A stretch of 21,503 nucleotides of DNA from a virus. Numbering within the stretch: position 1 is the first letter of the stretch; each line of letters starts with the position of its first letter. Below the pieces are notes generated by a model. It was not told where the DNA came from and ran no database searches. It saw only the letters and a program-made list of their open reading frames with translations. Below, in pieces: positions 2,807 through 21,503 of the stretch. Location of the stretch: the IMG/VR virus record IMGVR_UViG_3300020193_000163, positions 1 through 21,503 of that record; one strand, 5' to 3'. The position numbers and the translations under genes are program-made.

Positions 2807-2842
2807 TTAACACTTAAGACCAGTACACTTCACTACACTTTC

Positions 2843-3319: not shown

Positions 3320-3334
3320 TTGTTAACAACTGTG

Positions 3335-3373: not shown

Positions 3374-3378
3374 TTGGC

Positions 3379-3500: not shown

Positions 3501-3526
3501 CAATCTCAAAAAATTTTTCCGGAAGT

Positions 3527-3685: not shown

Positions 3686-3722
3686 GTGCTGTCAAAAAAA
3701 ATTCCGGAAAATATTTTTTTAT

Positions 3723-3941: not shown

Positions 3942-3966
3942 CAACACATATATAGACTGTTAAAAT
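3938..3966 (+). promoter_or_regulatory. Strong sigma-70-type promoter for the glycosyltransferase gene
   Basis: TTGACA (3938-3943), a 17-nt spacer and TAAAAT (3961-3966). The -35 overlaps the TGA stop of the preceding gene (3939-3941). The predicted start near 3973 gives a very short leader containing GAAGG (3974-3978) before ATG 3992. Confidence 0.65.
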
Positions 3967-3991
3967 TGAATTTGAAGGTTCATTAAACTTT

Positions 3992-4756
3992 ATGGCAAAA
4001 GGATTTACTGTTAAAGCTGCTGCACCAAAACCCAAAGAAGAATGGGATATTGATGCAATCAAAGAAAGAATGCGTGGAAAGAGTATTGTATTCTGTCTAC
4101 CTGGTAGAGGATGCTCTTTCATTTTTCTGAAGAACTTTGTACAACTGTGTTTTGATATGGTACAGAATGGTATGAGTATTCAGATTTCTCAAGACTATAG
4201 TTCAATGGTGAACTTTGCACGTTGTAAGTGTCTTGGTGCAAATGTTCTTCGTGGACCTAAGCAAATTCCTTGGGATGGTAAACTACAGTATGATTATCAA
4301 CTATGGATTGACTCGGATATTGTCTTTGACACAAACAAGTTCTGGCAACTCTGTGATTTAGCTCTTTCTGAAGATGGAACTGAGCGTGAAATTGTCGCTG
4401 GTTGGTATGCAACTGAAGATGGTCACACAACATCTGTCGCACACTGGTTGGAAGAAGATGACTTCCGCAAGAATGGTGGAGTGATGAATCATGAAACCGT
4501 TGAGTCCATTTCAAAGCGTAGAAAGCCTTTCACAGTGGATTACACTGGTTTTGGTTGGGTTCTGATTAAGAACGGTGTCTTTGAAAATCTTGAGTATCCT
4601 TGGTTTGCTCCGAAGATGCAAGTCTTTGAGTCTGGTAATGTTCAGGATATGTGTGGTGAGGATGTTTCATTCTGTCTTGATGCAAAAGAGCAAGGATTTG
4701 ATATCTGGTGCGATCCTCGTATTAGAGTTGGGCATGAAAAAACTCGCATTATCTGA
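3992..4756 (+). CDS. GT-A-fold glycosyltransferase-like protein, 254 aa
   Basis: It probably transfers a sugar from a nucleotide-sugar donor; donor and acceptor are unknown. The sequence has the layout of a GT-A (family 2-like) enzyme. A strand IVFCLPGRG near residue 33 is followed by a helix and the phrase DYSSMVNFARCKCLGAN. The metal-binding DxD motif is WIDSDIVFD with Asp107 and Asp109. An acceptor-side region has VDYTGFGWVLIKNGVFE. The candidate catalytic pair is Glu223-Asp224 in CGEDVSFC, and His248 in RVGHEKT is a possible metal ligand. The N-terminal 25 residues are charged and probably an extension. There is no signal peptide, so the enzyme is cytosolic. It could modify virion proteins, phage DNA or a host glycan. 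It has its own promoter, and its stop overlaps the next start (TGATG). Confidence 0.82.
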   Translation: MAKGFTVKAAAPKPKEEWDIDAIKERMRGKSIVFCLPGRGCSFIFLKNFVQLCFDMVQNGMSIQISQDYSSMVNFARCKCLGANVLRGPKQIPWDGKLQYDYQLWIDSDIVFDTNKFWQLCDLALSEDGTEREIVAGWYATEDGHTTSVAHWLEEDDFRKNGGVMNHETVESISKRRKPFTVDYTGFGWVLIKNGVFENLEYPWFAPKMQVFESGNVQDMCGEDVSFCLDAKEQGFDIWCDPRIRVGHEKTRII

Positions 4757-5796: not shown

Positions 5797-6031
5797 AGAC
5801 CAAAATTTTATGCGAAACCAGTGGGGAACTGAGTTTTTGTCAAGCGAATATGGTTGGGAGACTAAAATTGAGAAGCAAAAAATGCTTCGTGAGATAGCAA
5901 ATGATGAATTAACACCCAAAAAGCATGACTTTTTTCATCAAAGCGAAATTCACTCACAAATTCGCAATGATGAAGACTATGATGATTGGGAATATGGCAC
6001 AGAACCAATCTATGAATCCAAAAATCCCTAA
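5777..6031 (+). CDS. Acidic hypothetical protein, 84 aa
   Basis: ATG 5777 lies inside the end of the preceding gene in a different frame and has its own ribosome site (AGGAG at 5765-5769, 7 nt away). The overlap is therefore normal coupling and not a frameshift. The product is highly charged: QVDKDQNFMRNQWGTEFLSS near the start, a helix EKQKMLREIANDELTPKKHD, then an acidic, Tyr/Trp-rich end (NDEDYDDWEYGTEPIYESKNP). No known family is recognised. The TAA stop lies inside a late-promoter box for gene 25. Confidence 0.7.
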   Translation: MTKQVDKDQNFMRNQWGTEFLSSEYGWETKIEKQKMLREIANDELTPKKHDFFHQSEIHSQIRNDEDYDDWEYGTEPIYESKNP

Positions 6032-6038
6032 TAAATAA
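6028..6038 (+). promoter_or_regulatory. Late promoter upstream of gene 25
   Basis: CTAATAAATAA contains ATAAATA (6031-6037), matching the NATAAATA late box of T4-like cyanophages. It overlaps the stop codon of the preceding gene and lies 20 nt before ATG 6058. The identical 11-mer recurs at 8645-8655, again over a stop codon. Confidence 0.65.
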
Positions 6039-6057: not shown

Positions 6058-6459
6058 ATGCCTCTAGAAAGGGTAAGCCAAGGTTTTAAAGACATTAGTA
6101 TGACTTTTCAGAGTAATCCTCTGAACAGTGACTTGATAGCACTTAAAAATGAGAGTGCTATATCACGTTCAATCAGAAACATTGTGTTTACCCTTCCTGG
6201 TGAGAAATTTTTCAATCCAAATTTTGGATCGAGAGTAACAAAAATGCTTTTTGAGAATGTTGATGAAATTACAGCATCAAACGTTAGGGATGAAATTGCA
6301 ACCTCAATTGTGAATTATGAACCAAGAGTTGATTTAACAAACGTTGTAGTGACCCCTGATTATGATAATAACTCTTTTGATGTATTAGTACAATATCAAA
6401 TTATAGGAGCCAATGTTCCTGCACAAGAATTACAATTTGTTTTGCAACCAACTAGGTAA
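6058..6459 (+). CDS. 25: Baseplate wedge subunit gp25
   Basis: Homologue of T4 gp25, a small wedge protein that contacts gp6 and gp53 near the tail sheath and nucleates sheath assembly. At 133 residues it matches the T4 protein length (132). Diagnostic features are the N-terminal stretch DISMTFQSNPLNSDLIALKN (about 12-31), the conserved ISRSIRNIVFTLPGEKFFNP region (34-54), FGSRVTKMLFENVD (57-70), and NYEPRVDLTNVVVTPDYDNN followed by a strand-rich C-terminus. The fold is related to the gp25/IraD/lysozyme-like tail family of contractile systems. It is transcribed from the late box just upstream and ends 2 nt before gene 6, the usual pairing in cyanophages. Confidence 0.95.
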   Translation: MPLERVSQGFKDISMTFQSNPLNSDLIALKNESAISRSIRNIVFTLPGEKFFNPNFGSRVTKMLFENVDEITASNVRDEIATSIVNYEPRVDLTNVVVTPDYDNNSFDVLVQYQIIGANVPAQELQFVLQPTR

Positions 6460-6461: not shown

Positions 6462-8648
6462 ATGCCACTAGTAAACTTTTCTAACCTAGATTTCGATCAG
6501 GTTAAAGCAACGCTTAGAGATTATCTAAAAGCAAATCCCAATTTTACTGATTATGACTTTGAAGGGTCTAATCTTTCAACAATTTTGGATGTTTTGGCAT
6601 ATAACACATATATCACTTCATATAATGCAAATATGGTTGCAAATGAAGTGTTTATTGATAGTGCAACACTAAGAGAAAATGTGGTTGCACTTGCAAGAAA
6701 TATAGGATATGTACCCCGTTCGAGAAAATCTGCGTCAGCGACAGTATCTTTTTTCGTAGATCTCTCTAATGTAACACCAGCTCCTTCATCCTTAACCTTA
6801 AAAAAGGGTATTGTAGCTACTTCATCTGGAAATTTTGGTAATCAATCTTTTGCTTTTTCAATATTAGAAGACATTACGGTTCCCGTCTTCAATCAGCAAG
6901 CAACTTTTACTAATGTAAAAATAAATGAAGGAATTCTGTTAACAAATAATTTTACTTATTCATCTAGAAACCCAAATCAAAGATTTATCTTACCGAATTC
7001 AGGTATTGACACTGAGTTAATATCAGTAGCAGTGCAAAGCAATGAAAATGCCACAACTTCGGTAAAATATGCATATCAAGATAGTCTATTTGATATAAAT
7101 GGTTTCTCAAATGTATATTTCATACAAGAAATAGAAGATGAAAGATATGAATTAATTTTTGGTGATGGTATATTTGGTAGAAAATTAGAAGAAGGAAACT
7201 TTATTACTGCAAATTACATAACTTCAAATGGTGATAGTGCTAATGGAGTAAATTCTTTTACATTCTCTGGTAGATTAACTTATACAAGAAACTCTATTGA
7301 ATACACTGTTACCTCTGGCATTTCTCTACTTACAACACAACTTCCTGCTAGAGGCGGAGAAAATATTGAAAGCGTAGAGTCTATAAAAAAGTATGCTCCA
7401 AGAATTTATGCATCTCAAAATAGAGCTCTTACTGCAAATGATTTTGAAACTTTGATTCCATCAAAAATTTATCCAGAAACTGAGGCTATTTCTGTTTTTG
7501 GCGGAGAGGAACTGATACCACCACAATATGGAAAAGTTTTTATTAGTATAAAACCAAGATTTGGTGACTTTTTACCAAATTTGGTAAAACAAAGTATAAA
7601 ATTAAAACTAAAAAAATATGCGGTTGCCGGAATAGTCCCAGAAATTTTAGATCTAAAATACCTTTATGTTGAAGTGAACTCGAAAATTTATTATAACACG
7701 AATCTGGCACCATCATCTGCCTTTGTTTCAAGTATTATTCAAACAAATGTTACCAAATATTCAGAATCTACAGAATTAAATCGTTATGGAGCTAGATTTA
7801 AATATAGCAAATTTTTGAAATTGATTGATGACAGTCATGAGTCAATAACATCCAATATTACAACTATTCAAATGAGAAGAGATTTGAGAGTTGTCTTAAA
7901 TACCTTCGCAGAGTATCAAATATCTTTTGGTAATGAGTTTCATATATCCAGTATGGACGGTTACAACATTAAATCAACTGGTTTCCAAATTGCAGGAATA
8001 TCTCAGACAGTTTACTTAGGAGATGTTCCAAATACAAATAGACAAACTGGTACTTTATTCCTATTTACTGTTAATACAACTAATTCAAGAACTCCAAGTA
8101 TTTTAAGGAGAGGAGTTGGTACAATAGATTATAAAAATGGTATCATAACCATCAATCCTATCAATATATTAGCGTCTGCAAGAATTAAAGATGGTCAACC
8201 AATCATGGAAATTTCTGTAGTGCCAAAATCAAATGATGTTGTTGGAAAGCAGGATTTATATCTACAACTAGATGTTAGTAATAGTGTTTTTGATATGGTT
8301 GTGGATAATATATCATCTGGGTTGGATCCATCAGCATCTACTTACATAACATCCTCAAGTTACGCAAATGGTCTTCTTGTTCGTCCTGGAGGTTCAGTGC
8401 AGGGGTCCACAATTGTATCTGGGACTGGAACAATAGTCGGAGCTCTAGCGGGATCATCTTCATTCATAACAGCATCAACACCAACTCCAACACCAACTCC
8501 AACACCAACACCAACTTCATCAATACCCACATTCACATTCACTCCCTCCTTCACATCCCCATCACCATCTCCGTCCCCTTCGCCATCTCCATCCCCCTCG
8601 CCATCCCCATCTCCTTCGCCATCCCCATCTCCTTCGCCAGGTTACTAA
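6462..8648 (+). CDS. 6: Baseplate wedge protein gp6 with an appended Ser/Thr-Pro tail
   Basis: Homologue of T4 gp6 (660 aa), which dimerises to form the ring holding the wedges together. Here it is 728 residues. The N-terminus (LVNFSNLDFDQVKATLRDYL...) and the DYDFEGSNLSTILDVLAYNTY region (about 30-50) are typical of cyanophage gp6. The baseplate-J-like part shows FGDGIFGR (233-240), then ARGGENIESVESIKKYAP (296-313) and NRALTANDFETLIPSKIYP. The last 56 residues are unlike the body: six Thr-Pro pairs (673-684), a short linker, then fourteen Ser-Pro pairs (699-726) and Gly-Tyr. This tail is likely an extended, exposed peptide. The start follows gp25 by 2 nt, and the stop overlaps a late box. 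Confidence 0.94.
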   Translation: MPLVNFSNLDFDQVKATLRDYLKANPNFTDYDFEGSNLSTILDVLAYNTYITSYNANMVANEVFIDSATLRENVVALARNIGYVPRSRKSASATVSFFVDLSNVTPAPSSLTLKKGIVATSSGNFGNQSFAFSILEDITVPVFNQQATFTNVKINEGILLTNNFTYSSRNPNQRFILPNSGIDTELISVAVQSNENATTSVKYAYQDSLFDINGFSNVYFIQEIEDERYELIFGDGIFGRKLEEGNFITANYITSNGDSANGVNSFTFSGRLTYTRNSIEYTVTSGISLLTTQLPARGGENIESVESIKKYAPRIYASQNRALTANDFETLIPSKIYPETEAISVFGGEELIPPQYGKVFISIKPRFGDFLPNLVKQSIKLKLKKYAVAGIVPEILDLKYLYVEVNSKIYYNTNLAPSSAFVSSIIQTNVTKYSESTELNRYGARFKYSKFLKLIDDSHESITSNITTIQMRRDLRVVLNTFAEYQISFGNEFHISSMDGYNIKSTGFQIAGISQTVYLGDVPNTNRQTGTLFLFTVNTTNSRTPSILRRGVGTIDYKNGIITINPINILASARIKDGQPIMEISVVPKSNDVVGKQDLYLQLDVSNSVFDMVVDNISSGLDPSASTYITSSSYANGLLVRPGGSVQGSTIVSGTGTIVGALAGSSSFITASTPTPTPTPTPTPTSSIPTFTFTPSFTSPSPSPSPSPSPSPSPSPSPSPSPSPSPGY
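8478..8639 (+). repeat. Coding low-complexity repeat (Thr-Pro then Ser-Pro)
   Basis: At 8478-8513 ACNCCA-type 6-mers encode Thr-Pro six times. At 8556-8639 Ser-Pro is encoded fourteen times. Within the latter an 18-bp unit TCGCCATCCCCATCTCCT occurs at 8598-8615 and 8616-8633, with a two-base variant at 8580-8597 and a partial copy at 8634-8639. The nested period suggests growth by slippage or unequal exchange. Confidence 0.9.
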
Positions 8649-8655
8649 TAAATAA
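8645..8655 (+). promoter_or_regulatory. Late promoter downstream of gene 6
   Basis: CTAATAAATAA, identical to the 11-mer before gene 25, contains ATAAATA (8648-8654) and overlaps the TAA stop of gene 6 (8646-8648). It lies 20 nt before ATG 8676. Confidence 0.65.
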
Positions 8656-8675: not shown

Positions 8676-8936
8676 ATGAGACAAAAACCTATTGAAAACG
8701 AAAATTGGCAAGAAGGAAAAAATGTCAGTTATAGTCCTAATTTTATAATTAATGTTGGGAATCTTCAAATGGAATTAAACAAAACCTCTGCCTATGATTT
8801 CTACACAATTCCAGATAATATAGATGTTTTTGAATTTGAAATAACACTTGACAAATCATTTCATGTTCATAATAATCAGCACGTTAAAATTACTGGAGGC
8901 CAAAAAAGTAGTTCATCTGGGTCATATGGATACTAA
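8676..8936 (+). CDS. Unknown small protein between gp6 and the giant gene, 86 aa
   Basis: ATG 8676 to TAA 8934-8936, directly after a late-promoter box. The product starts MRQKPIENENWQEGKNVSY and has a strand-rich centre (NFIINVGNLQMELNKTSAYDF, DNIDVFEFEITLDKSFHVHNN). It ends in a flexible Gly/Ser/Tyr segment (GGQKSSSSGSYGY). The position among baseplate genes and the late promoter suggest a virion or assembly protein. The Gly-Tyr end resembles the Pro-Gly-Tyr end of the preceding gp6 product. No family is recognised and there is no membrane segment. Confidence 0.72.
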   Translation: MRQKPIENENWQEGKNVSYSPNFIINVGNLQMELNKTSAYDFYTIPDNIDVFEFEITLDKSFHVHNNQHVKITGGQKSSSSGSYGY

Positions 8937-8955: not shown

Positions 8956-11900
8956 ATGTCAGAAAAAAGAATTCAATTAAAAGATATTGTAAAAAATCAA
9001 GTCCCACAATACGTAAAAGAAGAGTATCCTCTTGTGGGAGAATTTTTATCGCAGTATTATCTTGCTCAAGAGTTTCAAGGAGCCCCAATTGATCTACTGC
9101 AAAATATTGATCAATATGTGAAACTTGATTCCATCACTAATCTAGGAACTTTTACTACACTAAGTTCTGACATAACTTCTTTTGATGAAAACATATCAAT
9201 AAATCTTTTAGATTCTGAAACTGGAACTGAAGGATTTCCAGAAAAATATGGTCTAATTTCAATAGATGATGAAGTGATTGCATATAAAACAAAAACTCCT
9301 AATGGATTCACTAACTGCTATAGAGGATTTAGTGGAATTGTAGCATATAAAAATACCAATGTTGGAATCGCTTCCACTTATAAATTAAAAACTTCTGATC
9401 AATTAATTTTCAAAGATTCTAATTCCGAATCCCATAGTGCTGGAACTAAAATATACAATCTTAGTAATCTTTTCTTAAAAGAATTTTTAATTAAGACAAA
9501 ATATCAAATATCTCCTGGATTTGAAAATAGGAGTTTTATTGAAAGGGCAAACGAATCAACAATATTAAAGCAAATTAAGGATTTTTATAAAAGTAAAGGA
9601 ACTGATCGTTCCTTTGAAATTTTATTCAAAGCTTTATATGGCGATGAAGTAAAAGTAATACGTCCAAGAGATTTCCTTTTTAGACCTTCAGATGCACAAT
9701 ATAAAGTAACAAATGACTTAGTGGTAGAGTTAATCTCTGGTCCTATACAAGATATTCCAAATTTAACTCTGTTTCAAAATCCATATCAAAGCATTACCAA
9801 AGCTTATGGCACAGTTTCTGAACTAGAAAATATAGTTTCTGATGATGGAAGAAGTTTTTATAAGTTGAAAATTGATGGTGGATATAATAGAGATCCAGCT
9901 TTTAATGGCGCAATTTATGGGAAATTTGCAGTTCATCCCAAAACTAGATCAATTGGACAATTTCCATCTGGATCTTCCGCAATAGATGTAGATTCTACTG
10001 TTGGTTTCCCAAATAAAGGAGAAATTTCTGTAGAATTTAGCAACCAAACGACAGGTATTGTATCTTATACTTCAAAAAATCTAACTCAATTCTTAGGGTG
10101 CGGTAATGTAAATTATGCGATAAGTAATAACTCTAAAATAGGAATTAATACATACGCATCAGCAGTAACTGGATTTGGAACTGAAATTAAAGTTAGAATA
10201 AATTCTATCTTAAATAGCGTAGCAATTAGTGCCGGAAATTATTTTTACGCTAAAAATGATACCGCAACTATTCCAACTTTAGGTTACCAAGGAAAAAATG
10301 CTCTTGATAATGGTTGGGTTTTTAACACTTCACCAACATATGAAGTGGAATCCTATGAAATCGTTGATTTTTCAGATCAGACTTATAGTGTTACACTCAA
10401 AAACAAACATGCATTCCAAACTGGCGATAAATTAGAAATCGTAGAGAGTGATGCTGTTATTGGAAATTCTAATGTTTTAGATATTTTATCCGAAAAGACA
10501 ATAGTCATTATTGGACAGGGATTATTGAGAGGAAGAGGATTTAAGATAAGAAGAAAGATATTAAAAGTAAGTTCATCAAAGTTTCCAGATGCTAATATAT
10601 TATCTGCCAACGTACAGAACATTTATAAAGACGGACAAAAAACTCTAGTCGCTGCGCCATCTCTTCCAAATTATAACAACCAACAATTAAACGTTACTGA
10701 TCGTTCTATCGTTTTTTCTGGTGTTTTTCAGGGAAGCACTTTTACAATAACTTCTTTAGAAGATCATGGTTTTTATACTGGAGATTCTGTTTACTATACG
10801 CCAGAAAAAACTACATTAACTTCTATTGATGTTGATGGAAATTCTTCAATATCTAATATTATCTCCAGTTCTCTTTTTGATGAAGGAATTTACTTCATTA
10901 AAAGAATTGATGCAAATAATGTAAAGTTTGCGAAAAGTAAATCTGACATTCTGAATGGGGATTTTATATCGTTAGAAAACCAAACAACGATCAATAACAA
11001 TACATTAGAACCATATGAATTTGCCAATAAAACTCTAGAATCTCAAAAATTACTGAGGGAAATTTCTCTACCGGAAACAACAAATCTATCTGAAGAAACA
11101 ATTCCAGGATTTACAGGAATTTTAGTGAATGGTGTTGAAATATTAAACTATAAATCTAAAGATAAAATAATTTATGGACCTATAGAAGATATTGAAGTCT
11201 TATCTGAAGGAACAAACTATGATATCATTAATGCACCACATCTTATCATAAGTGATTCTGTTGGAACTGGTGCAACAGGATATTGTGCAGTTTCTGGTTC
11301 TTTAAATGAAATTCGCATAGTAGATCCTGGTTTTGATTATCTCGATACTCCAACTGTTAGGATAACAGGTGGTAATGGTTCTGGAGCAAAAGCCAGAGTT
11401 AATATGAAATTAGTCGTACATGAAGTAATTTTTAATTCTGAATTAAAATCTGATTTAGTTGGAATTGGAAGTACAATTTCTACGATAGGATTTTCAACTG
11501 CACATAAATTCAGAAACGGCGAAGGCGTAATTTACAAGACTTTTGGACAAAAATCTGTAACTGGACTGACAACAGACGCAACTTATTATGTTTCAAACGT
11601 TTCTACCACAAAAATAAAATTACATAAAAACTTTAATGATGCTATTTCTGGAATTAATACAATATTTTTAACAGGATATGGTGTCGGAAATCATTCATTT
11701 GAAACAATTAATAAAAAGTCAATTCTTGCTTCAGTAACTGTAGAAAATACTGGATTTGGATATCAAAACAAAAAAAGAACTGTTTCATCATCAGGTATTA
11801 ATACCTCAACAGATTCAATCTACATTAAAAACCATAATTTTTCATCTGGGGAAATAGTAACTTATTCAACTTCTGGTAGTGCAATTGGAGGACTTTCTAA

Positions 11901-14900
11901 TAATACGAATTATGTTGTCACAAAAGTAGACAACAATAATTTTAGAGTTTCTCAAGTTGGCAGCGGAAATCTTAGTGAAGATTTTTACTACAAAACTAAA
12001 CAATATATTGATATTACTTCAACCAATGGAGATACTCACATTTTCAATTATCCAACCATAAATGTTGAGTTAGTTGGAAATGTTGGAATCTCCACAAGTT
12101 ACAAAGCTCAAATAGAACCAATTTTTAGAGGTTCTATTAAGTCAATACACATGACCTCTGGTGGATCTTCTTATGGTGTTGAAGATATATTCAATCTTGA
12201 TAGACAACCTCTTATAACAATTGCCAGTGGCTCTAATGCAGAATTTCAACCAGTTATATCAAACGGAAAAGTAAAACAGGTTCTGGTTAATAATGTCGGC
12301 AGAAACTATACTTCTTCACCAAATTTAGTTATTTCTGGTAGTGGTTCTGGTGCGGTTCTAACTCCAGTTATTTTAAATAATCAAATAATAGATGTTAAAG
12401 TAATTGATGGCGGTAGTGGATATCTACAAGAATCTACTTCGATTGTCGCAGTTCACCCTGGATCTGGAGCAACATTTAGAGCAAAAATAAAATCTTGGAC
12501 TGTCAATTTATTCCAAAAATACATAAGCAAAATATCAGAAGATGATGGATTTTTAACAATAGGAACTGGAAAGGAATTTGGTTTACAATTTAGTCACATA
12601 TATGCTCCCAGAAAACTAAGAGAGTTACTATTTTCTAAAGATCAAGCAGGAAAAACATTATATTCAAATTCAGATTTAAGAATATCAAACTCTGTAGAAA
12701 TAAATTCCACGGACCACTCCCCTATAATTGGATGGGCTTATGATGGCAATCCAATTTATGGTCCATATGGATATTCCACAAAATCTGGTGGTGTAGTTTC
12801 CCAGATGAAGAGTGGTTATAGATTGCAATTAAATTCTTCTAGACCTTCTTTAAATTATTTTTCAGAAGGATTTTTCATCGAGGATTATATTTACTATAAC
12901 TCTAATGACGAAACTGTTTTAGATGAAAATAATGGAAGATTTTGCATAACTCCAGATTATCCAAAGGGAACATATGCATACTTTGCGACTTTAGATAATT
13001 CTAGTGTCGAATCTTCAGGACCTTTTGCGAGATATAAAAAACCTATTTTCCCATACTTAATAGGAAATAAGTTTACATCAAAACCAAATAAGTTTAACTT
13101 TGACAGATTTTCTAATCAAAATGTAATAGACTTAAATAAGACAAATTGGGTTAGAAATACTTATCCATATAACATCATAGAAAATGAATCAACTTATGAG
13201 TACATAACTATACCCAATAAACTAAATCAGACAATTGATGTTGTTGGCGTTTCTCCTGGACATGTAGATAGCATTGGAATACTAACGGGAGGAAATAATT
13301 ATCAGATTAATGATGCGCTTGTATTTAATAATATTGATTCTGGTAAAAATATTAGAGGATTTTCAGCAGCAGCTGTCGTTTCAAAACTTAGTGGAAAAAC
13401 AGTTTCAAACATAAGTGTTGCCAGTAGCACTTTGAATAATGTTGAATTCTATCCAATCGGAAACAAAGGAGAATACATCTTATTCAACGAAAATCCACAT
13501 AATTTTACTGATTTTGATCTTGTTTCAATATCTGGTCTAAGCACAACTTCATCACTCATAGAAGGAAATTATATTGCTGGAATAGAGACAAGCAAATTGT
13601 CTTTAGTTGGAGTAGGAACTTCTACTATCGGAATCGGTACATTAGGTGTAACTGGAATTGTAACTTATATTTCTGTAAGAGGATCTTTAGGATTTTCAAA
13701 TATAAGAGAAAATGATATTCTCTCCATTAATAATGAGAAGATAAAAGTTCTTAATATTGACAATGTTTCATCCAGATTAAGAATTTTAAGACAAGTTAGT
13801 GGAACAGTCGGAACATCTCATAGTGTTACTACAGTTATATACGAAAATCCAAGGAAGTTAAAGATAAACTCTGGATTTAAGACTGATTACTCATATTTTA
13901 TAAACAAGGAAATTTACTTTAATCCAAGTGAATCTATTGCAATAGGAACAAATACTTCTATCGGTGTTGGCACAACGATTACTTTCTCAAATCCAGGAGC
14001 GGGAGCAACTCAAGTATTCATTCAAAATGGTTTAATTTATCTTCCAAATCATCAATTAAATACTGGAGATCAATTAACTTATAGAACTAACACGGGAACT
14101 CCTATAACAGTCTATTCTATTGGTGTTGGCACTATAAGTTTGTCTGATAATTCAAGTGTTTATGTTGCTAAATTTAGTGATAATTTTATAGGAATATCTA
14201 CAGTAAAAGTTGGATTGGGAAGTACAGGATTCTTCGCTGGTATTGGTAGCACAACAAGTAACATAAAACCAGTTCTTTTTACCGGATTTGGAACTGGCGT
14301 TTATCATAGTTTTGTTACTAATTATTCTGTAATTACTGGACAAGTTTCCAGAAATGTAGTTACTGTTTCTACAGCTCAAACACATGGTTTGATGAATGAT
14401 GATTATGTTGAAGTTGATGTAAGTCCATCTATTACAACATCAATAACTCTAAAATATAATGACTATAATAGAAAAATAGTAGTCAATCCAAAATCTTTTA
14501 GTGCAGGTAATGTAAATATCACTACTAACACTATAACAATTCTGAATCATAATTTTAATAGTGGCGATAAAGTAATTCACACATCAACTTCACCATCTGG
14601 AGGTTTGGTCGATCAAAAAACTTATTACATAATTTTTGTAGATAAAAATAACGTTAGATTATCAGATAGTTATTTTAATTCAACTAAGAGAGTTCCAGAT
14701 GTTATTGATATTACAAGTGCATCTTCTGGAGTTCTTTCACAAGTAAATCCTCCATTAAAACTATACAAAAATTCTGTAGTTGAATTTGATTTATCAGATT
14801 CTTCTCTATCATATACTTACCAATCAACTAGATACTCTGCATTTAGATTTGAAATATTCAAAGACAGAGAATTTAAAAACATTTTTGATACTTCAGAATA

Positions 14901-17900
14901 TAGTTCTACCTTTAATGTTCAACGTATTGGTGTAGTTGGAATATCATCAGATGCAAAATTAAGACTGATTGTAGACGAATATCTGCCAAAAGTTTTATAC
15001 TATAACTTGGTTCCTGTTTATGAAAGCACTCTTCCAATAGAAAAACAAGAGATATTATCAGATAATTCTATCAATTCATATAACGAGTTGCAAATAGAGA
15101 AGAGCATTTATAATGGGACTCACAAAGTTTCTATATCCACATCAACCTCATTCAACTACTTCTTGAAAAGTGAACCTGAGGTATCATCATACATATCATC
15201 AACCTCTGATCTGAAGTATTATACAAATTCAGTATCAGCATATGGACCAATTAGAGATATTAAGATATTGAACAGGGGAGTTAACTATTACTCTTTACCA
15301 GCAATTTCAGATGTGACTTCGGGTGTTGGTTCTGGAGCAGTTCTTGAAGCTCAAAGCAGATCTATTGGAAGAATTAAAAAAACAAAAATAATGAATGTTG
15401 GATTTGATTATCCATCGGATTATACTTTAAAACCAAAAATAGCTTTACCAAAAATAATAAAAATTGATAGTTTAACGTCATTCCAATCTGTCGGGGTTTC
15501 TTCTTTCGGCAGAGGATATGTTTCTGCGCCAAAACTATTAGTCTTTGATGGTAAAACAGGACAATTAGTTCCAGAAGTTGATTTAAAATATGAACTTGGA
15601 AAAAATCAAGTTGAAATAAGAAATAATAGTTATGGAATGTATAACACGCAACCAGTTATACTGCCAATACAAAACTCAAATGGAGTTGGAATTAGAACTA
15701 TATCATACAATAGTTCAACTAAAAAAGTTACTGTTGGTCTTTCCACCGGTTTCAATACTTCAAGTTCTTTCCCATTCCAAGTTAATGATAAAGTTCTCAT
15801 AGAGAACATAAGTGTTGGAATAGGATCGACTGCAAAAGGATTTAATTCCGAAAATTACAATTATCAATTATTCACATTAACAGATATTGATGCAAATATT
15901 GGTGGAATAGGATCGGTTTCATATAGTTTAGATGGATATTTGTCCGGCACAGAATTTCCAGGAAATTTTGATGCGGCAAACTCTGCTGGTAGAATTATTC
16001 CAGAAAAGTTTTTCCCACAATTCATCTCAACTTTAAAGAAAAATGATTATAGAGTAGGTGAAATAGTTAAATCCGAAAATTCTACTGGAGTTATTGAAAG
16101 TTGGGATTCTATAACAAATTATTTGAAAATATCAACCAAAGATGAATTTGGGGTTGGCAATAAAATTGAAGGATTATCATCAAAAACTCAAGGTTTTGCA
16201 TCGTCTATTACAGAATTTGATTATTATGCAGTTCTTGATTCAACATCAAAAGTTGAAAATGGATGGGAAACAAGTGCAGGATTCTTAAATAGCGAAGAAC
16301 AAAGAATCCAAGATAACCTTTACTATCAAAATTTCTCATATTCAATTAAATCAAAAATACCATTTGATACTTGGAATGATGCGGTTAGTACGCTTAATCA
16401 CACAGTTGGGTTTAGAAAATTCTCAGACTTACAGGTAGAATCAAAAGTTTCTCCAGAAACAAATACTTCTCTTACTGTTGGTGTTTCGACTCAAGTGACT
16501 GGAGTAGATGTTATTGTAGATATGATTGGTGTTGGTGACTTAAATTGTTTTTATGATTTTGATCTGGCTAAAGAGAATTCTCTAAGAATTGGGTCTAGAG
16601 TATTCTCAAACAGAATATCTTTCAATAACAGAATTTTAACAGATTATTTCGAGTCTTTTGGAAATAGAGTTCTATCAATTGATGATATTAGTTCTCAATT
16701 CAATAGTAATCCAAGACCAACTAACTATGCAGAAGTTCATAGATTTGATCTGAGAGACATAAGAGCTCAAAAATATATCACTTATATTAAAGATAGAAGA
16801 TACACTGGTCAACGCCAGGTCATGTTGCTCACGTTGATTCATGATGATTTAAATGGATACTTAAATCAGTATGGAAGAGTTGAGACTTCATATGATCTTG
16901 GTTCTTTTGATTTTGCAGTTAGTGGTTCTGATGGTATTTTAAATTATTATCCAACTAGATTTACAATAAATGATTATGATGTCACTACTCTTTCTTATAA
17001 TTTAAAAGACAACCTGAGTGGAGTAGGTAGTACTACTATAGGACCAATCATAAATATCAACACAACAAACTCAAGTGTAGCAGCAGCGTCAACTGTAACT
17101 ATTGTTAGTTTTGCATCTACATATACCTCGGCTAAAATTCTTGTAGAAATTAATGGCGGAGATGGTGAATATGAGCTAGATGAACTTAATCTAGTTCATG
17201 ATGGAACTAATGTGGAACTAATTGAATATGGTCAATTAACCACTGGTTCTTTACTAACACCATTATCTTCTAGTGGGTATGGAACTTATTATCCATATAT
17301 CTCAGGATCAACGATAAAGGTAGACTTTATTGCTAATGCTGGAATAGGAACGACAACATATATCAACACTATTACGATTGGAATTGCCAACACCTCTAGT
17401 GTAGGTGTTGGAACTCTTGAAATGAAACATGCTGTTTTGACAGCAAAAACTACATCCATAGCCTCTTCTACTTCACCAACTTCGTCCTCTATTCTAGAAT
17501 ATTCTGGAGAATATAGTGCCGCATATTGTTTGGTTCAAGTAACAGATGTAACTAATAATAGACACCAAATATCTGAAATTGTCATGATAGATGATGATGC
17601 ATACCCTGAACCATATGTAACAGAATTTGGAAACTTAGAAACTCATAGTGGTCTTGGAACTATTGGTGGATCAATTACTGGAATTGGAGAAACTACTCAA
17701 TTAACATTTACTCCTCTACCAAATATTGAGACACAAGTTAAAGTATATGCAAATATTTTAAGAATACAAGATGATTCTAGAGATATTGTTGATTTAGACA
17801 ATGGAACAATTGAAACAAATTATGCAAATTATTATGGAACAGAAAGTGATTTGAAGAGAGCATTTAATCTCACCCATAAAGGATCTCAAATTTTTGAAAG

Positions 17901-20900
17901 ATATTTTGATGGATCTAATGCCAGTATTGTGAGTTTTACTGACAATACAATAGAAATTCCAGGACACTTCTTTGTTACTGGAGAAAAGGTTACTTATACT
18001 AGTGCAGGTGCTGGAACAACCGCATCTGTTGGAATTGCTACCACAACGATAACTGGAATTGGAATTACTGATAAACTACCATCAACTCTTTATATTGTTA
18101 AAGTAAATGATAATAAAGTAAAAGTATCTGCTTCCGCCACAGATTCATTAAAATCAATTCCTAATGTTCTTGACTTGACAAGTGTTGGAGTTGGAACCAC
18201 TCATAAATTTACTTCACATAATCAAAATGCTAAAGTTCTAATATCTTTAGATAATATAATTCAATCACCAGTTGTTGCTACTTCTCAAACAACGACTCTT
18301 GCAGTTAATGCATTTACAACCGAGGATGTATTATACTTTACAGGCATAACTTCATTCTTTGGTGGTGATTTAATAAGAATCGGCAGCGAAATAATGAAAA
18401 TTGAAGGAGTTGGAATTGGAAGCACTAATGCGATAAGAGTGAGAAGACCTTGGCTTGGAACTTCAGTTGCAGGATATTCTACTGGAGCTATAGTTACAAA
18501 GGTACGAGGAACATATAATATTGTTGATAATATTTTGAACTTTGTAGAAGCTCCGTATGGAAATGTTCCAATTGGAAGTATAACCAATCCACCTGATGAA
18601 AGAGATTGGTCTGGAATATCAACAAGTTCACACTTCCATGGAAGATCCTTTATGAGATCTGGAATCGTCAATAGTTCCAACGAATCTTACTATAAAAACT
18701 ATATCTTTGACGATGTTTCAGATAATTTTACCGGAACAAACAGAACTTTTGCATTAAAAACTTCAGGTTCAAATGTAACTGGAATTTCAAATGAAAACGC
18801 AATCATACTGATTAATGATGTTTTCCAGGGACCTGGTTCTGATGCAAATTATACGCTATCTGAAAATGTTGGTGTTACTTCTATAACCTTTACTGGAACA
18901 GCTACTTCTGTTGCATATGATATAAATTCATCGAATCTTCCTACTGGCGGAATCATTATTTCTGTTGGTTCAACTGAAGGATTTGGATATCAACCATTAG
19001 TTGCTGCTGGTGGAACAGCGATAGTTTCTATTGCTGGAACAATTTCATCAATCAGTATTGGAAACAGTGGTTCTGGATATAGATCTGGCATTCAAACTGT
19101 CAGGGTTGGAGTTCAAACGTATGATTCTAATGGGTTCTACTTGAATTTTATTGGAACTGCTGCCGTAAGTAAAGGAAACATTGTAAGTATTGCTATTACA
19201 AATCCAGGTATTGGATACACCTTCACAAACCCACCAAAAGTTATCTTTGATGAGCCATTATCATATTCAGATATTCCATTAATTTATAGTTCTTCTTCAT
19301 CAATTGGAATTGGAACAGCAGCAACTGTTGATATTGTAGTAGGACAAGGTTCTAGTGTAATTGATTTTGAAATTAGAAATACTGGTTATGGATATAGAGA
19401 AAATGAAATATTAACCGTTCCTATTGGGGGTTTGAGTGGAATACCAACAACATCATCATTTAAAGAATTCCAGATTACAGTACAAAATATATTCTCAGAT
19501 AAATTTACTGGATGGTCTCTTGGCGAATTGCAATCTTTTGACGATATTTCTGAATTATTTGACGGCGAAACTACAACTTTCCCACTGACAGTTAATGGAA
19601 ATTTAATTTCTATTAAAGCATCTAAGGGTTCTAATATTAACGTTCAAGATTTGCTTTTAGTATTTGTAAATGATATTCTGCAAGTTCCTGGACAAGGATA
19701 TATTTTTGAAGGTGGAAGTATTATAACATTCACTGAAGCTCCAAAAGGAACAAGTTTGGGAATTCCTGGTACAAATGATACATGCAAAATTCTTTTCTAT
19801 AAGGGAAGTGGATCTGTTGATGTAATAGAAAGGAACATTTTAGAGACAGTTAAAATAGGAGATCAGTTGATTTTAGGTTATGATCCATCTATTGGTCAGC
19901 AACCAACACTTCAAGAGGAAGATAGAACAGTAACTTCAATTCTTGCAACAGATTTAGTTAACACAAATCCATATTTTGGACCAGGAAACACTGGGGATGA
20001 ATCCTTAGCAAGAACAATTACTTGGTGTCGTCAAACTGAAGATAAGATTATAGATGAAAAAGAAATAACGAAAGATAGAATGCTTTATGAGCCAACTATC
20101 AATCCAACTGCTTATTTAATACAACCAGTTGGAGTTGGTACAACTATTGTATATGTTGATAATCTAAGACCATTCTTCAATCCAATAAATGAAAGTCAAA
20201 CTAGCCTGAGTTTCCAAAATAAAATCACTTTAATCTCTCAAGATGAAAAAGTTGGAGCATCTGCTACAGCAGTGGTTTCTACTGCAGGAACAATAACGTC
20301 GATAAGCATTAATAATGGAGGAAGTGGATATGCTTCTGCCCCATCTATTAGTATTGGAAACACAGCACAATCTATTGGTTTGGGAACTACCGCTATTGCA
20401 TCTGCCTCGGTTCTTTCTGGAGTTGTTACATCAATAACATTAACTAATGCTGGAACAGGATATACCTCAACCAATCCACCATCAATTTTAATTGAACCTC
20501 CAACATCAGTTATTGAAACTAATTCTGTAGAATCTTATTCTGGTGATTCTGGGGTAATTGTTGGATTTGGAACGACAACACAATCCGCTACTGTTAAACT
20601 TATATTTGATTTGCATATACCACTAGATTCCTATTTACGAGCAACATCTGTGGTTGGCAGTGCAGTGACTTTAAGTTCAATATCCATTGGAGATTACTTT
20701 ATCGTTTATGATTCTAATGTTGGGTCATCATCAACAACGATTTATTCTAGAGATAAAGATGATAATATTATAGGAATCGGAACGGAATTTTTAGATAACA
20801 TCTATCAAGTTGATTCAGTATCTAATGTTCAATACTCGGTTGTTGGAGTTGGAACAACAACTTTAAGAAGAGTCCAGGCAAGAGTTAGTGGTCTCTCTAC

Positions 20901-21165
20901 TATTTCGTTTAGTTCTTCTTTAATTACTTTTGATTCTGGTGTTTTTACTTTTGATAGTTCTGGAATCACTACTTCATACAGTGGAATAGTAACAACCATA
21001 ACTTCATATAACTTTGGTAATTTTAGCTGGGGTAAAATTATACTGTCTTCAAGATCTGCCAATAATCAATTTAATTACTATGGTAATAATGGAGTTGTTG
21101 GAATTACAACCTCATCTCTAGTAAAAAGATCAACCCCACTTAAATATATAAACTACATAGTCTAA
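8956..21165 (+). CDS. Giant modular virion structural protein (4069 aa), in the gene 7 position
   Basis: One uninterrupted 12.2-kb frame for a protein of roughly 440 kDa. The N-terminal part (about 1-250) has LSQYYLAQEFQGAPIDLLQNI (31-51) and FYKSKGTDRSFEILFKALYG, a pattern of large phage baseplate-associated proteins. Then come six 'NHNF.SGD.V.Y...' modules (near 584, 839, 949, 1685, 1851 and 2990) and four 'I.dE...Y' modules (103, 355, 1587 and 3138). Paired GSGY-type repeats lie near 763, 1069, 2107, 3336 and 3763. A YHYH domain spans about 1240-1350 (GWAYDGNPIYGPYGY). Further segments are DNLYYQNFSYSIKSK (~2450), a duplicated beta unit (2726 and 2856), INDVFQGPG (~3287) and VNDILQVPGQGY (~3573). 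The order gp6 - small gene - giant matches T4 genes 6-7 by position, and T4 gp7 has 1032 aa, so identity as gp7 is not proven. A peripheral baseplate or fibre role is inferred. Confidence 0.88.
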   Translation: MSEKRIQLKDIVKNQVPQYVKEEYPLVGEFLSQYYLAQEFQGAPIDLLQNIDQYVKLDSITNLGTFTTLSSDITSFDENISINLLDSETGTEGFPEKYGLISIDDEVIAYKTKTPNGFTNCYRGFSGIVAYKNTNVGIASTYKLKTSDQLIFKDSNSESHSAGTKIYNLSNLFLKEFLIKTKYQISPGFENRSFIERANESTILKQIKDFYKSKGTDRSFEILFKALYGDEVKVIRPRDFLFRPSDAQYKVTNDLVVELISGPIQDIPNLTLFQNPYQSITKAYGTVSELENIVSDDGRSFYKLKIDGGYNRDPAFNGAIYGKFAVHPKTRSIGQFPSGSSAIDVDSTVGFPNKGEISVEFSNQTTGIVSYTSKNLTQFLGCGNVNYAISNNSKIGINTYASAVTGFGTEIKVRINSILNSVAISAGNYFYAKNDTATIPTLGYQGKNALDNGWVFNTSPTYEVESYEIVDFSDQTYSVTLKNKHAFQTGDKLEIVESDAVIGNSNVLDILSEKTIVIIGQGLLRGRGFKIRRKILKVSSSKFPDANILSANVQNIYKDGQKTLVAAPSLPNYNNQQLNVTDRSIVFSGVFQGSTFTITSLEDHGFYTGDSVYYTPEKTTLTSIDVDGNSSISNIISSSLFDEGIYFIKRIDANNVKFAKSKSDILNGDFISLENQTTINNNTLEPYEFANKTLESQKLLREISLPETTNLSEETIPGFTGILVNGVEILNYKSKDKIIYGPIEDIEVLSEGTNYDIINAPHLIISDSVGTGATGYCAVSGSLNEIRIVDPGFDYLDTPTVRITGGNGSGAKARVNMKLVVHEVIFNSELKSDLVGIGSTISTIGFSTAHKFRNGEGVIYKTFGQKSVTGLTTDATYYVSNVSTTKIKLHKNFNDAISGINTIFLTGYGVGNHSFETINKKSILASVTVENTGFGYQNKKRTVSSSGINTSTDSIYIKNHNFSSGEIVTYSTSGSAIGGLSNNTNYVVTKVDNNNFRVSQVGSGNLSEDFYYKTKQYIDITSTNGDTHIFNYPTINVELVGNVGISTSYKAQIEPIFRGSIKSIHMTSGGSSYGVEDIFNLDRQPLITIASGSNAEFQPVISNGKVKQVLVNNVGRNYTSSPNLVISGSGSGAVLTPVILNNQIIDVKVIDGGSGYLQESTSIVAVHPGSGATFRAKIKSWTVNLFQKYISKISEDDGFLTIGTGKEFGLQFSHIYAPRKLRELLFSKDQAGKTLYSNSDLRISNSVEINSTDHSPIIGWAYDGNPIYGPYGYSTKSGGVVSQMKSGYRLQLNSSRPSLNYFSEGFFIEDYIYYNSNDETVLDENNGRFCITPDYPKGTYAYFATLDNSSVESSGPFARYKKPIFPYLIGNKFTSKPNKFNFDRFSNQNVIDLNKTNWVRNTYPYNIIENESTYEYITIPNKLNQTIDVVGVSPGHVDSIGILTGGNNYQINDALVFNNIDSGKNIRGFSAAAVVSKLSGKTVSNISVASSTLNNVEFYPIGNKGEYILFNENPHNFTDFDLVSISGLSTTSSLIEGNYIAGIETSKLSLVGVGTSTIGIGTLGVTGIVTYISVRGSLGFSNIRENDILSINNEKIKVLNIDNVSSRLRILRQVSGTVGTSHSVTTVIYENPRKLKINSGFKTDYSYFINKEIYFNPSESIAIGTNTSIGVGTTITFSNPGAGATQVFIQNGLIYLPNHQLNTGDQLTYRTNTGTPITVYSIGVGTISLSDNSSVYVAKFSDNFIGISTVKVGLGSTGFFAGIGSTTSNIKPVLFTGFGTGVYHSFVTNYSVITGQVSRNVVTVSTAQTHGLMNDDYVEVDVSPSITTSITLKYNDYNRKIVVNPKSFSAGNVNITTNTITILNHNFNSGDKVIHTSTSPSGGLVDQKTYYIIFVDKNNVRLSDSYFNSTKRVPDVIDITSASSGVLSQVNPPLKLYKNSVVEFDLSDSSLSYTYQSTRYSAFRFEIFKDREFKNIFDTSEYSSTFNVQRIGVVGISSDAKLRLIVDEYLPKVLYYNLVPVYESTLPIEKQEILSDNSINSYNELQIEKSIYNGTHKVSISTSTSFNYFLKSEPEVSSYISSTSDLKYYTNSVSAYGPIRDIKILNRGVNYYSLPAISDVTSGVGSGAVLEAQSRSIGRIKKTKIMNVGFDYPSDYTLKPKIALPKIIKIDSLTSFQSVGVSSFGRGYVSAPKLLVFDGKTGQLVPEVDLKYELGKNQVEIRNNSYGMYNTQPVILPIQNSNGVGIRTISYNSSTKKVTVGLSTGFNTSSSFPFQVNDKVLIENISVGIGSTAKGFNSENYNYQLFTLTDIDANIGGIGSVSYSLDGYLSGTEFPGNFDAANSAGRIIPEKFFPQFISTLKKNDYRVGEIVKSENSTGVIESWDSITNYLKISTKDEFGVGNKIEGLSSKTQGFASSITEFDYYAVLDSTSKVENGWETSAGFLNSEEQRIQDNLYYQNFSYSIKSKIPFDTWNDAVSTLNHTVGFRKFSDLQVESKVSPETNTSLTVGVSTQVTGVDVIVDMIGVGDLNCFYDFDLAKENSLRIGSRVFSNRISFNNRILTDYFESFGNRVLSIDDISSQFNSNPRPTNYAEVHRFDLRDIRAQKYITYIKDRRYTGQRQVMLLTLIHDDLNGYLNQYGRVETSYDLGSFDFAVSGSDGILNYYPTRFTINDYDVTTLSYNLKDNLSGVGSTTIGPIININTTNSSVAAASTVTIVSFASTYTSAKILVEINGGDGEYELDELNLVHDGTNVELIEYGQLTTGSLLTPLSSSGYGTYYPYISGSTIKVDFIANAGIGTTTYINTITIGIANTSSVGVGTLEMKHAVLTAKTTSIASSTSPTSSSILEYSGEYSAAYCLVQVTDVTNNRHQISEIVMIDDDAYPEPYVTEFGNLETHSGLGTIGGSITGIGETTQLTFTPLPNIETQVKVYANILRIQDDSRDIVDLDNGTIETNYANYYGTESDLKRAFNLTHKGSQIFERYFDGSNASIVSFTDNTIEIPGHFFVTGEKVTYTSAGAGTTASVGIATTTITGIGITDKLPSTLYIVKVNDNKVKVSASATDSLKSIPNVLDLTSVGVGTTHKFTSHNQNAKVLISLDNIIQSPVVATSQTTTLAVNAFTTEDVLYFTGITSFFGGDLIRIGSEIMKIEGVGIGSTNAIRVRRPWLGTSVAGYSTGAIVTKVRGTYNIVDNILNFVEAPYGNVPIGSITNPPDERDWSGISTSSHFHGRSFMRSGIVNSSNESYYKNYIFDDVSDNFTGTNRTFALKTSGSNVTGISNENAIILINDVFQGPGSDANYTLSENVGVTSITFTGTATSVAYDINSSNLPTGGIIISVGSTEGFGYQPLVAAGGTAIVSIAGTISSISIGNSGSGYRSGIQTVRVGVQTYDSNGFYLNFIGTAAVSKGNIVSIAITNPGIGYTFTNPPKVIFDEPLSYSDIPLIYSSSSSIGIGTAATVDIVVGQGSSVIDFEIRNTGYGYRENEILTVPIGGLSGIPTTSSFKEFQITVQNIFSDKFTGWSLGELQSFDDISELFDGETTTFPLTVNGNLISIKASKGSNINVQDLLLVFVNDILQVPGQGYIFEGGSIITFTEAPKGTSLGIPGTNDTCKILFYKGSGSVDVIERNILETVKIGDQLILGYDPSIGQQPTLQEEDRTVTSILATDLVNTNPYFGPGNTGDESLARTITWCRQTEDKIIDEKEITKDRMLYEPTINPTAYLIQPVGVGTTIVYVDNLRPFFNPINESQTSLSFQNKITLISQDEKVGASATAVVSTAGTITSISINNGGSGYASAPSISIGNTAQSIGLGTTAIASASVLSGVVTSITLTNAGTGYTSTNPPSILIEPPTSVIETNSVESYSGDSGVIVGFGTTTQSATVKLIFDLHIPLDSYLRATSVVGSAVTLSSISIGDYFIVYDSNVGSSSTTIYSRDKDDNIIGIGTEFLDNIYQVDSVSNVQYSVVGVGTTTLRRVQARVSGLSTISFSSSLITFDSGVFTFDSSGITTSYSGIVTTITSYNFGNFSWGKIILSSRSANNQFNYYGNNGVVGITTSSLVKRSTPLKYINYIV
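12673..13005 (+). other. YHYH domain region inside the giant structural gene
   Basis: The segment encodes about residues 1240-1350 of the giant protein. It has the core pattern DHSPIIGWAYDGNPIYGPYG (around 1253-1272), a descending FFIEDYIYY stretch, DENNGRFCITPDYPKGTYAY and FATLD. This matches the YHYH family, known from bacterial and eukaryotic secreted proteins and from cyanophage virion proteins. The eponymous Tyr-His-Tyr-His string itself is replaced by YAYFAT here. Confidence 0.75.
18961..20515 (+). repeat. Related GSGY repeat blocks within the giant gene
   Basis: Two blocks encode the same module. Block one (about 18961-19430) contains AGTISSISIGNSGSGY and NIVSIAITNPGIGYTFTNPP. Block two (about 20242-20515) contains AGTITSISINNGGSGY and VVTSITLTNAGTGYTSTNPP. 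Each block has two 'I.SI.I.N.G.GY' units followed by a Pro-rich end. Between them lies the non-repeated 'VNDILQVPG' to 'PTAYLIQPVGVGTT' segment. The blocks point to internal duplication. Confidence 0.65.
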
Positions 21166-21190: not shown

Positions 21191-21503
21191 ATGGCAAAGT
21201 TAGGTATAAGTACAGGAACAGTGCCTAATGATGGAACAGGTGACACGCTGTTGTCTGGTGCGATAAAAGTAAATAGTAACTTTAATGAAATTTATAATTA
21301 TTTCGGAGCAGGGAGCACTACAACCCTATCTGCGCCTGTTTGGAGCACTACGAACGCTGGTATTAACACATTAAGGAATGTTGGTATCGGAACCACAAAT
21401 CCAAGATTTGCCCTAGAGGTTGGTGCTGTTGGAGCATCAGGAACCACATTATTTGTAAATGGTGATGCACGAATCACTGGAATCTTAAGTATTGGAACTT
21501 CGT
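21191..21503 (+). CDS. Fibre-like virion structural protein, N-terminal part (3' partial)
   Basis: ATG 21191 runs open to the right edge (104 codons). The N-terminus MAKLGISTGTVPNDGTGDTL followed by LSGAIKVNSNFNEIYNYFG is a hallmark of cyanophage tail-fibre and structural proteins. It probably attaches the fibre to the particle. It is followed by NVGIGTTNPRFALEVG (around 68-83) and VNGDARITGILSIGTS, the repeating 'VGIGTTNP..LEV.G' module typical of fibres with triple-beta shafts. The gene starts 25 nt after the giant gene and probably continues for hundreds of codons. The exact T4 equivalent cannot be named from this fragment. Confidence 0.85.
   Translation, partial: MAKLGISTGTVPNDGTGDTLLSGAIKVNSNFNEIYNYFGAGSTTTLSAPVWSTTNAGINTLRNVGIGTTNPRFALEVGAVGASGTTLFVNGDARITGILSIGTS

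Follow-up and report, generated by a model that had tools for sequence, protein, structure and literature searches.

The window analysed here is the whole of IMG/VR virus record IMGVR_UViG_3300020193_000163 (positions 1 to 21,503; 21,503 bases). A single ATG-initiated open reading frame (ORF) of 4069 codons on its plus strand (8956–21165) takes up 57% of the record and encodes a protein with a calculated mass of 442 kDa and an isoelectric point of 5.2. Most likely, this ORF encodes gp7, a baseplate wedge protein with a two-landmark anatomy, of a T4-like (Kyanoviridae-type) cyanophage: profile comparisons showed its N-terminal ~300 residues and the region 2434–2493 to correspond to the wedge core of T4 gp7 (~640–890). 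What the analysis adds is the position and separation of these two core landmarks; the family as such is already known. An earlier reading of the same DNA, made from the letters alone (the sequence-only reading), had described a 12.2-kb, 4069-codon frame filling more than half of the window and suggested that its product may be gp7-like. The coordinates were exact, and profile–profile, PDB-profile and whole-genome comparisons bore out gp7 homology. The gene and the regions of the encoded chain are as follows:

8956–21165 (+): giant baseplate wedge protein of the gp7 family, 4069 aa (phrog_2885, E 0, 3835 bits)
8956–9120 (+): N-terminal helices, residues 1–55, equivalent to the start of the ~500-aa gp7s (hhalign to a Yut2/ACP17 profile)
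9544–9690 (+): gp7 landmark 1 (FYxSKGTxxSFxxLFKxLYG), residues 197–245, corresponding to T4 gp7 732–758 (profile comparisons)
9694–10215 (+): region modelling like T4 gp7 762–843 (domain V) and seemingly carrying an additional insert, residues 247–420 (AlphaFold 2 (AF2) model)
12700–13002 (+): YHYH-family domain, residues 1249–1349 (PF14240, E 2.8e-23; profile positions 87–185 of 193, second half only)
16255–16434 (+): gp7 landmark 2 (YYQxFSYxIxS...W...HPxGF), residues 2434–2493, corresponding to T4 gp7 865–888 (profile comparisons)
16435–21162 (+): lineage-variable C-terminal tail, residues 2494–4069 (tblastn record counts)

The giant frame is a conserved gene of cyanophages

The 4069-codon frame is a real gene. 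Gene 111 of phage Bellamy (4067 aa) aligned with its product end to end (50.8% identity over 4135 columns, 1–4067 to 1–4065), and S-SM2 gp7 aligned in two pieces (1–3376 and 3385–4069) covering nearly the whole chain; per 100 residues, identity to these two proteins ranged from 28% to 74% over the chain length. Of 89 matching loci, 34 kept an open frame of 3912–3937 codons that reached the end of the DNA examined, most of the remaining loci being shorter pieces. The ratio of nonsynonymous to synonymous substitution rates (dN/dS) was 0.04–0.29 in 70 of 70 windows of 400 codons (seven relatives, ten windows each), indicating purifying selection; the values are approximate, as they derive from a simple counting estimate with dS often ~1 or higher (saturated), and two of the seven relatives (L013 and L014) gave almost identical values and effectively count as one. 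Full-length homologues, open frames in the loci and purifying selection excluded a chance ORF or an assembly artefact.

With residues 1–600 as the tblastn query, 466 phage records passed a threshold of E ≤ 1e-5; 457 carried the name Synechococcus phage, cyanophage or Prochlorococcus phage, and many among the best 60 of these 466 matches were annotated as gp7 or as baseplate wedge initiator or subunit. As homologues in relatives already carry such annotations, the gene is not new: by its sequence matches, it is a member of the known giant gp7 / baseplate wedge initiator family of Kyanoviridae (phrog_2885). Family members comprise 4067 aa in Bellamy, 4156 in S-SM2, 4446 in P-HM1, 5195 in P-SSM2, 6619 in S-SZBM1 and 7124 in P-SSM7. 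Giant size is thus usual for the family, with the window protein at the low end of the range of these six relatives, and the sequence-only estimate of about four times the size of T4 gp7 (1032 aa) was accurate. With the giant gp7s of Bellamy, S-SM2 and P-SSM2, the window protein shares the gp25–gp6–gp7 gene order, full-length alignment, both landmarks, a YHYH-like domain and the size class. The window differs from Bellamy and S-SM2 in an 86-aa ORF added between gp6 and gp7 and in a fibre-type gene in the place of gp8.

Profile searches detected no second gp7 core in six complete cyanophage genomes; the separate gp7 homologue that the sequence-only reading had named as evidence against itself was thus not found in these relatives. 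The gp7s of P-SSM7 and S-SZBM1 carry a further ~500 residues inserted near residue 117, and among the second matches of the N-terminal query in these two phages is the helical start of this very gene, which precedes the insert. Other ORFs of S-SZBM1 and P-SSM7 matched only an inserted beta domain (profile 55–129) of the N-terminal profile. One of them, S-SZBM1_205 (615 aa; L008 14260–16107), was rejected as a separate gp7 since it did not match landmark 1; it matched phrog_22827, phrog_708, the repeats described below and the inserted beta domain (A2 profile 62–123). Its name 'baseplate wedge initiator', used in the record and in PMC9146016, is likely a misnomer.

The N-terminus corresponds to the C-terminal core of T4 gp7

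When a profile of 74 N-termini was compared with seven T4-type gp7s using hhalign, residues 201–307 aligned with T4 725–814 at 95.5% probability (score 78.7 vs. a maximum of 29.2 in 100 column shuffles), a value that stayed at 95.5–95.7% across profile runs. Searched against all PDB sequences, a 57-row N-terminal profile ranked the two gp7 sequences at the top (E 5.3e-5 and 7.7e-5), followed by unrelated matches from E 0.098; in the whole T4 genome, the same profile found a single place, inside gp7 (E 5.7e-8). In the reverse direction, the T4 gp7 PHROG gave a single match in each of 14 among 17 records (T4, phiN3, Yut2 and 11 of 13 cyanophage-type records, seven of the 13 being fragments), which in the cyanophage-type records always fell within the giant ORF. 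P-HM1, S-SZBM1 and ACP17 went unmatched, whereas one of 14 control genomes gave a match. A PHROG scan of T4 gp7 touched the cyanophage family at T4 730–758 (E 1.3e-4), and the N-terminal query touched wedge genes of T4-like phages at residues 148–250 (E ≤ 10; best 60 of 878 rows). Finally, whole T4 gp7 aligned with a 12-row alignment of full-length giant gp7s at 201–306 (T4 725–813, 92.4%), no counterpart of T4 gp7 1–640 being detected there (best probability 0.07%).

Short gp7s encoded downstream of gp6 in ACP17 (Acidovorax phage, 482 aa), Yut2 (Stenotrophomonas phage, 503 aa) and phiN3 (1006 aa) help to place this core. As with cyanophage gp7, their genes are found together with gp25 and gp6 and ahead of a further baseplate wedge gene, and they share both landmarks and the N-terminal helices with the giant protein. 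They aligned to T4 gp7 from ~640 to 830, with probabilities of 96.6% when grouped (phiN3 6–205 to T4 640–830), 91.0% for phiN3 alone and 71.7% for Yut2 plus ACP17. Because these alignments begin at about T4 640, the core sits behind a 640-residue N-terminal arm in T4 and at the very start of the short and cyanophage gp7s. The anatomy differs from that of the sequence-only reading: residues 1–400 match the C-terminal part of T4 gp7 (~640–860), not its N-terminus. In line with this, 196 residues precede landmark 1 in the window protein vs. 719–838 in the seven T4-type gp7s. The helices at residues 1–55 aligned with the Yut2/ACP17 profile as a second alignment (8–62 to 5–59, probability 73%), which relates them, through the ~500-aa gp7s, to the helical region of T4 gp7; they presumably form the hairpin of the (gp6)2–gp7 core bundle. 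T4 gp7 (PDB 5HX2, 5IV5) shares with the giant chain landmark 1, possibly a domain-V-like fold, a modest landmark 2 and the position after gp6; it differs in residues 1–640, for which no counterpart was detected. The characteristics of the T4-type (Straboviridae) gp7 subfamily, namely matches to the Pfam gp7 models and the ~640-residue N-terminal arm, were not found in the window protein.

Landmark 2 lies more than 2,000 residues downstream

In the short gp7s, landmark 2 maps close to the C-terminal end (hhalign, 94.5–96.4%); with T4 848–890 it aligned at 81% (score 40.7, whereas 100 column shuffles reached at most 22.3). In six of six records outside its build, a nine-row landmark-2 profile found exactly one place, in gp7 (E values: T4, 9.6e-5; RB49, 5.7e-4; K491, 2.8e-3; phiN3, 3e-14; Yut2, 6e-12; ACP17, 1e-10); a weak extra place appeared in P-SSM7, in an 842-aa frame (E 0.063). 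As direct scores to T4 are modest, landmark 2 is linked to T4 mainly via the short gp7s and the specificity of this genome search.

Both landmarks occurred in identical order in 17 of 17 proteins, with spacings of 104–106 residues in the seven T4-type gp7s, 253–256 in the two ~500-aa gp7s, 797 in phiN3 and 2188–2780 in the window protein and its six giant relatives. Of 37 viral loci picked by length, several of which were also rows of the landmark profiles, 36 carried both landmarks, spaced by 2169–2228 residues in 35 and by 2443 in one; the remaining locus (L042) is cut at 2415 aa. The lengths before landmark 1, between the landmarks and after landmark 2 are, for selected proteins:

Window protein: 196 / 2188 / 1576
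T4: 731 / 106 / 144
Yut2: 79 / 253 / 68
ACP17: 80 / 256 / 53
phiN3: 83 / 797 / 21
P-SSM7: 676 / 2708 / 3630
S-SZBM1: 691 / 2780 / 3039

The short gp7s thus differ from the giant chain in having only 253–256 (phiN3, 797) residues between the landmarks and 21–68 after landmark 2. Given the different spacings, T4 and cyanophage gp7 would have grown at different points. Rather than being simply an extended gp7, the giant chain appears to be a gp7 whose core is split by ~2,200 residues (2188 in the window protein) and followed by a 1576-residue tail.

Phage XM1 has a gp7 orthologue, gp17 (242 aa), which is described as having an N-terminal helix-turn-helix in a (gp6)2–gp7-type bundle and as binding the spikes via its loop 80–106 and its C-terminus (PMC10457771). 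Giant inserts are lacking in XM1 gp17. By analogy, the spike-binding loop and C-terminus may mark the same points at which cyanophage gp7 grew. Searches of open-access PMC papers turned up none on the two gp7 landmarks, which is no proof of absence.

Modules, repeats and the C-terminal tail

The YHYH-family domain is the sole Pfam domain above cut-off in the giant protein. The literal YHYH motif, part of a histidine set proposed for metal binding, was absent from the window protein, the six giant relatives and 66 of 66 chains longer than 1420 aa; a DGxPxYG motif was kept in 65 of these 66 chains, and the stand-alone S-SZBM1_207 retains YHYH. YHYH proteins have been predicted to be zinc-binding hydrolases (PMC7824862); since the motif is missing, the gp7 copy is probably not one.

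The sequence-only reading had pictured a chain of repeated modules that may include absorbed fibre or adhesin modules. Two repeat families were indeed found (six ~80-aa copies and ten shorter GSGY-type stretches), but they cover only 822 of 4069 residues (20%), a count that is generous in that the repeat models were iterated on these same proteins; two thirds of the covered residues fall between the landmarks. No fibre or lectin Pfam family was among the matches of the giant protein, leaving the degenerate YHYH domain and the short repeats as the only recognisable modules. As a homologous fragment in phage Syn30 bears the name LamG-like, adhesin-type modules are possible in relatives.

By tblastn record counts, the region after landmark 2 is the variable part: relatives of the 1576-aa tail were found in 104 phage records, coverage reaching at least 80% in 15, compared with 466 for residues 1–600 (102 covered to at least 80%) and 463 for the 383-aa YHYH region (397 covered to at least 80%), counts that are only roughly comparable given the different query lengths.

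An alternative reading would make the giant chain chiefly a tail fibre or adhesin with a borrowed wedge-type N-terminal anchor rather than a builder of the wedge. The YHYH-family domain, the repeats, the variable tail and the LamG-like name in Syn30 would fit such a protein, as would the recurrence of the N-terminal beta domain (profile ~55–129) in S-SZBM1_205 and two P-SSM7 ORFs. However, no other gp7 core was found in the six complete cyanophage genomes, so that the wedge would require a different occupant; landmark 2, kept ~2,200 residues downstream at near-constant spacing, is more than simple anchoring by the N-terminus calls for; and the fibre and lectin Pfam families went unmatched. We therefore regard a fibre or adhesin as very unlikely and a gp7 wedge protein as the preferred reading.

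Predicted structure and points against a gp7 assignment

AF2 models were obtained for residues 1–604 (predicted local distance difference test (pLDDT) value 66, predicted template modelling score (pTM) 0.33) and 2096–2620 (pTM 0.49). These two stretches fit the earlier description of the protein as beta-rich, at middling model confidence. Model residues 247–420 superposed on 762–843 of 5iv5_BJ, taken as gp7 from its chain length and the PDB profile search, with Z 8.8 and a root-mean-square deviation of 2.1 over 82 residues. The fold search of the 2096–2620 model returned small beta-barrel matches only (best Z 8.5, Uba1 chains; endosialidase chains, 5.5–6.8), and the PDB profile search for this region a single chance-level match (E 1.6). 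In a viral fold library, cyanophage relatives ranked at the top, with many low-similarity rows beneath.

Several results weigh against gp7. The Pfam gp7 models PF21427, PF21428 and PF21456 gave no match to the window protein: the Gp7_helical, domain V and domain VI models match T4 gp7 but none of the window protein, ACP17, Yut2 and phiN3. PF23786 (Baseplate_wedge) reached 26.5 bits, just under its 27-bit cut-off. The similarity of landmark 2 to T4 is modest, the 81% hhalign probability stemming from a short profile; its PDB search ranked gp7 first, yet with E values no better than 0.08 and 0.12. When full-length sequences were compared, 2462–2487 aligned with T4 864–889 as the second-best alignment at just 1.2% probability. 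Three other phage tail chains scored Z 9.2–9.7 elsewhere in the N-terminal model (parts 326–399 and 328–537), Z differences under 1 counting as ties, and the Foldseek top 50 for this model did not include gp7. Finally, the AF2 models are weak overall, with pLDDT mostly 34–54 in the N-terminal helices and mostly below 50 in landmark 2.

Presence of relatives in virions and relation to VrlC

Relatives of the protein have been detected in virions, the sequence-only reading having named absence from virions as a result that would speak against it. For S-SZBM1_208 (6619 aa), 71 peptides at 13.5% coverage are listed (PMC9146016, Table 1), and for S-CREM2 ORF122 (77594–83407, 1937 codons), which we took as a homologue from its annotation and because two inner wedge genes precede it, 91 unique peptides at 27.2% coverage (PMC10665884, Table 3). 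Conceivably, the 4069-residue chain is cut during assembly, so that core and modules act as separate proteins. Nothing direct points to this; a long chain with distinct regions makes cutting possible, and the published coverage of S-SZBM1_208 is only 13.5%. However, the peptide tables of both papers hold a single entry per whole chain and do not mention cleavage, and constraint, as judged by dN/dS, is fairly even throughout the chain. We thus consider cleavage unlikely.

In PMC7029224, T4 gp7 is said to be absent from the pelagi- and cyanomyophages compared there and apparently replaced by VrlC. If so, cyanophages would lack gp7, and the giant ORF would be an unrelated virion protein beside gp6. 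However, the giant ORF carries the gp7 landmarks in order, also in genomes with an annotated VrlC (S-SM2 and P-HM1), and phiN3 encodes both VrlC and its 1006-aa gp7; ACP17 and phiN3 annotate VrlC after gp7. Because VrlC-bearing genomes also hold gp7 landmarks, the published statement does not hold on our sequence comparisons, at least for S-SM2 and P-HM1, and substitution by VrlC is highly improbable as an explanation of the giant ORF. The presence of a gp7 with a seemingly split core would contradict the claim of absence. In addition, pelagiphage Mosig EXVC030M showed a match to a short gp7 (E 2e-8). As noted in PMC3037559, gp7, gp10 and gp12 are highly divergent even within non-cyanophage T4-likes.

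A possible split wedge core

In T4, six copies of gp7 are present in the baseplate. On the gp7 reading, the N-terminal helices of the giant protein would bundle with two copies of gp6, and landmark 1 together with the domain-V region would form the wedge core, both as known from T4 and XM1. The chain would then exit the wedge for ~2,000 residues, re-enter at landmark 2 and exit again as a ~1,580-residue tail. The excursions of six copies may form the baseplate periphery and hold the receptor-binding parts, giving giant gp7 a putative role as a peripheral receptor platform, and may replace the N-terminal 640 residues of T4 gp7 together with the products of g10, g11 and g12. These three genes were not found in cyanomyoviruses (PMC2984593), and T4-like cyanophages are described as being without several T4 baseplate parts.

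In its strongest form, which we put forward only tentatively and hold to be the less probable outcome, one split core would be assembled from two segments separated by more than 2,000 residues: a ~2,000-residue collar would leave the wedge, landmark 2 would complete the core, and a 1,600-residue arm would follow, with six chains (~2.65 MDa) constituting the entire receptor platform at the periphery, where T4 has gp10, gp11, gp12 and the N-terminal arm of gp7. Against replacement speaks the gp9/gp10-type N-terminus found in the gene that follows gp7 in the window, as well as in S-SZBM1_206 and a P-SSM7 gene annotated as gp9; since such N-termini occur in neighbouring genes, replacement of g10, g11 and g12 may be partial. 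If the core is indeed split, T4 and cyanophages enlarged one core at different points. Segments ~1–300 and 2434–2493 are predicted to meet in space, which renders the question of outer-baseplate replacement directly testable.

Neighbouring genes

The genes flanking gp7 in the window are:

6058–6459 (+): gp25-like baseplate wedge / sheath initiator, 133 aa (PF04965, E 4e-16; phrog_261)
6462–8648 (+): gp6-like baseplate wedge protein, 728 aa (phrog_219, E 2e-189; Pfam Gp6-like_1st; 27% identity to T4 gp6)
8676–8936 (+): 86-aa ORF between gp6 and gp7 (phrog_3363, E 1.6e-10)
21191–21502 (+): start of a gp9/gp10-N-type fibre-like gene running off the record (PF07880, E 1.5e-9)

The giant gene had been placed right after gp6; it does lie downstream of gp6, with the 86-aa ORF intervening. 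One relative (L011) has a similar reading to this ORF, also upstream of gp7. Downstream, the gene start at 21191–21502 is 64% identical over 77 aa to a 322-aa ORF of genome G011. Here, gp8 lies beyond the window; in relatives, it either follows gp7 immediately or comes after a fibre cassette and, being a separate gene in them, was ruled out as a part fused into the giant ORF. The variable cassette that separates gp7 from gp8 (window 21191–21502; L341 818–2144; L342 2175–3501) comprises two ORFs, one of fibre type (322 aa) with a gp9/10-like N-terminus and a glycine-rich end, the other of 115 aa with a match to Phage_tail_APC (PF16778). It is present in G010 and G011 and, as judged from the beginning of its first gene, in the window; in G008, whose gp7 is 90% identical across residues 1–600, the cassette is absent and gp8 comes directly after gp7.

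The gp6 C-terminus ends in a long low-complexity tail of TP/SP dipeptides (8440–8648), the gp6 tails of S-SM2 and Bellamy being T/S/G-rich instead. Within 700 bases upstream of gp7, an SP/TP run (at least four) was seen in one of 12 relatives checked (L011). The sequence AATAAATA occurs at 6030–6037 and 8647–8654 (+), in each case overlapping a stop codon; the first copy precedes gp25, and the second precedes the 86-aa ORF by 21 bases. This sequence fits the cyanophage late-promoter motif NATAAATA (PMC2984593) and is a possible, weak late-promoter candidate, weak because the 7-base core is not enriched but depleted in the window (5 occurrences vs. 12 expected).

Further upstream, the ORF at 5101–5796 matches phrog_3704, named ferredoxin, as are its counterparts in the S-SM2 and Bellamy annotations; it matched no Pfam family, and the name may be wrong. 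On the minus strand, 861–1889 encodes a GIY-YIG endonuclease (PF01541, E 7e-14), probably a homing endonuclease.

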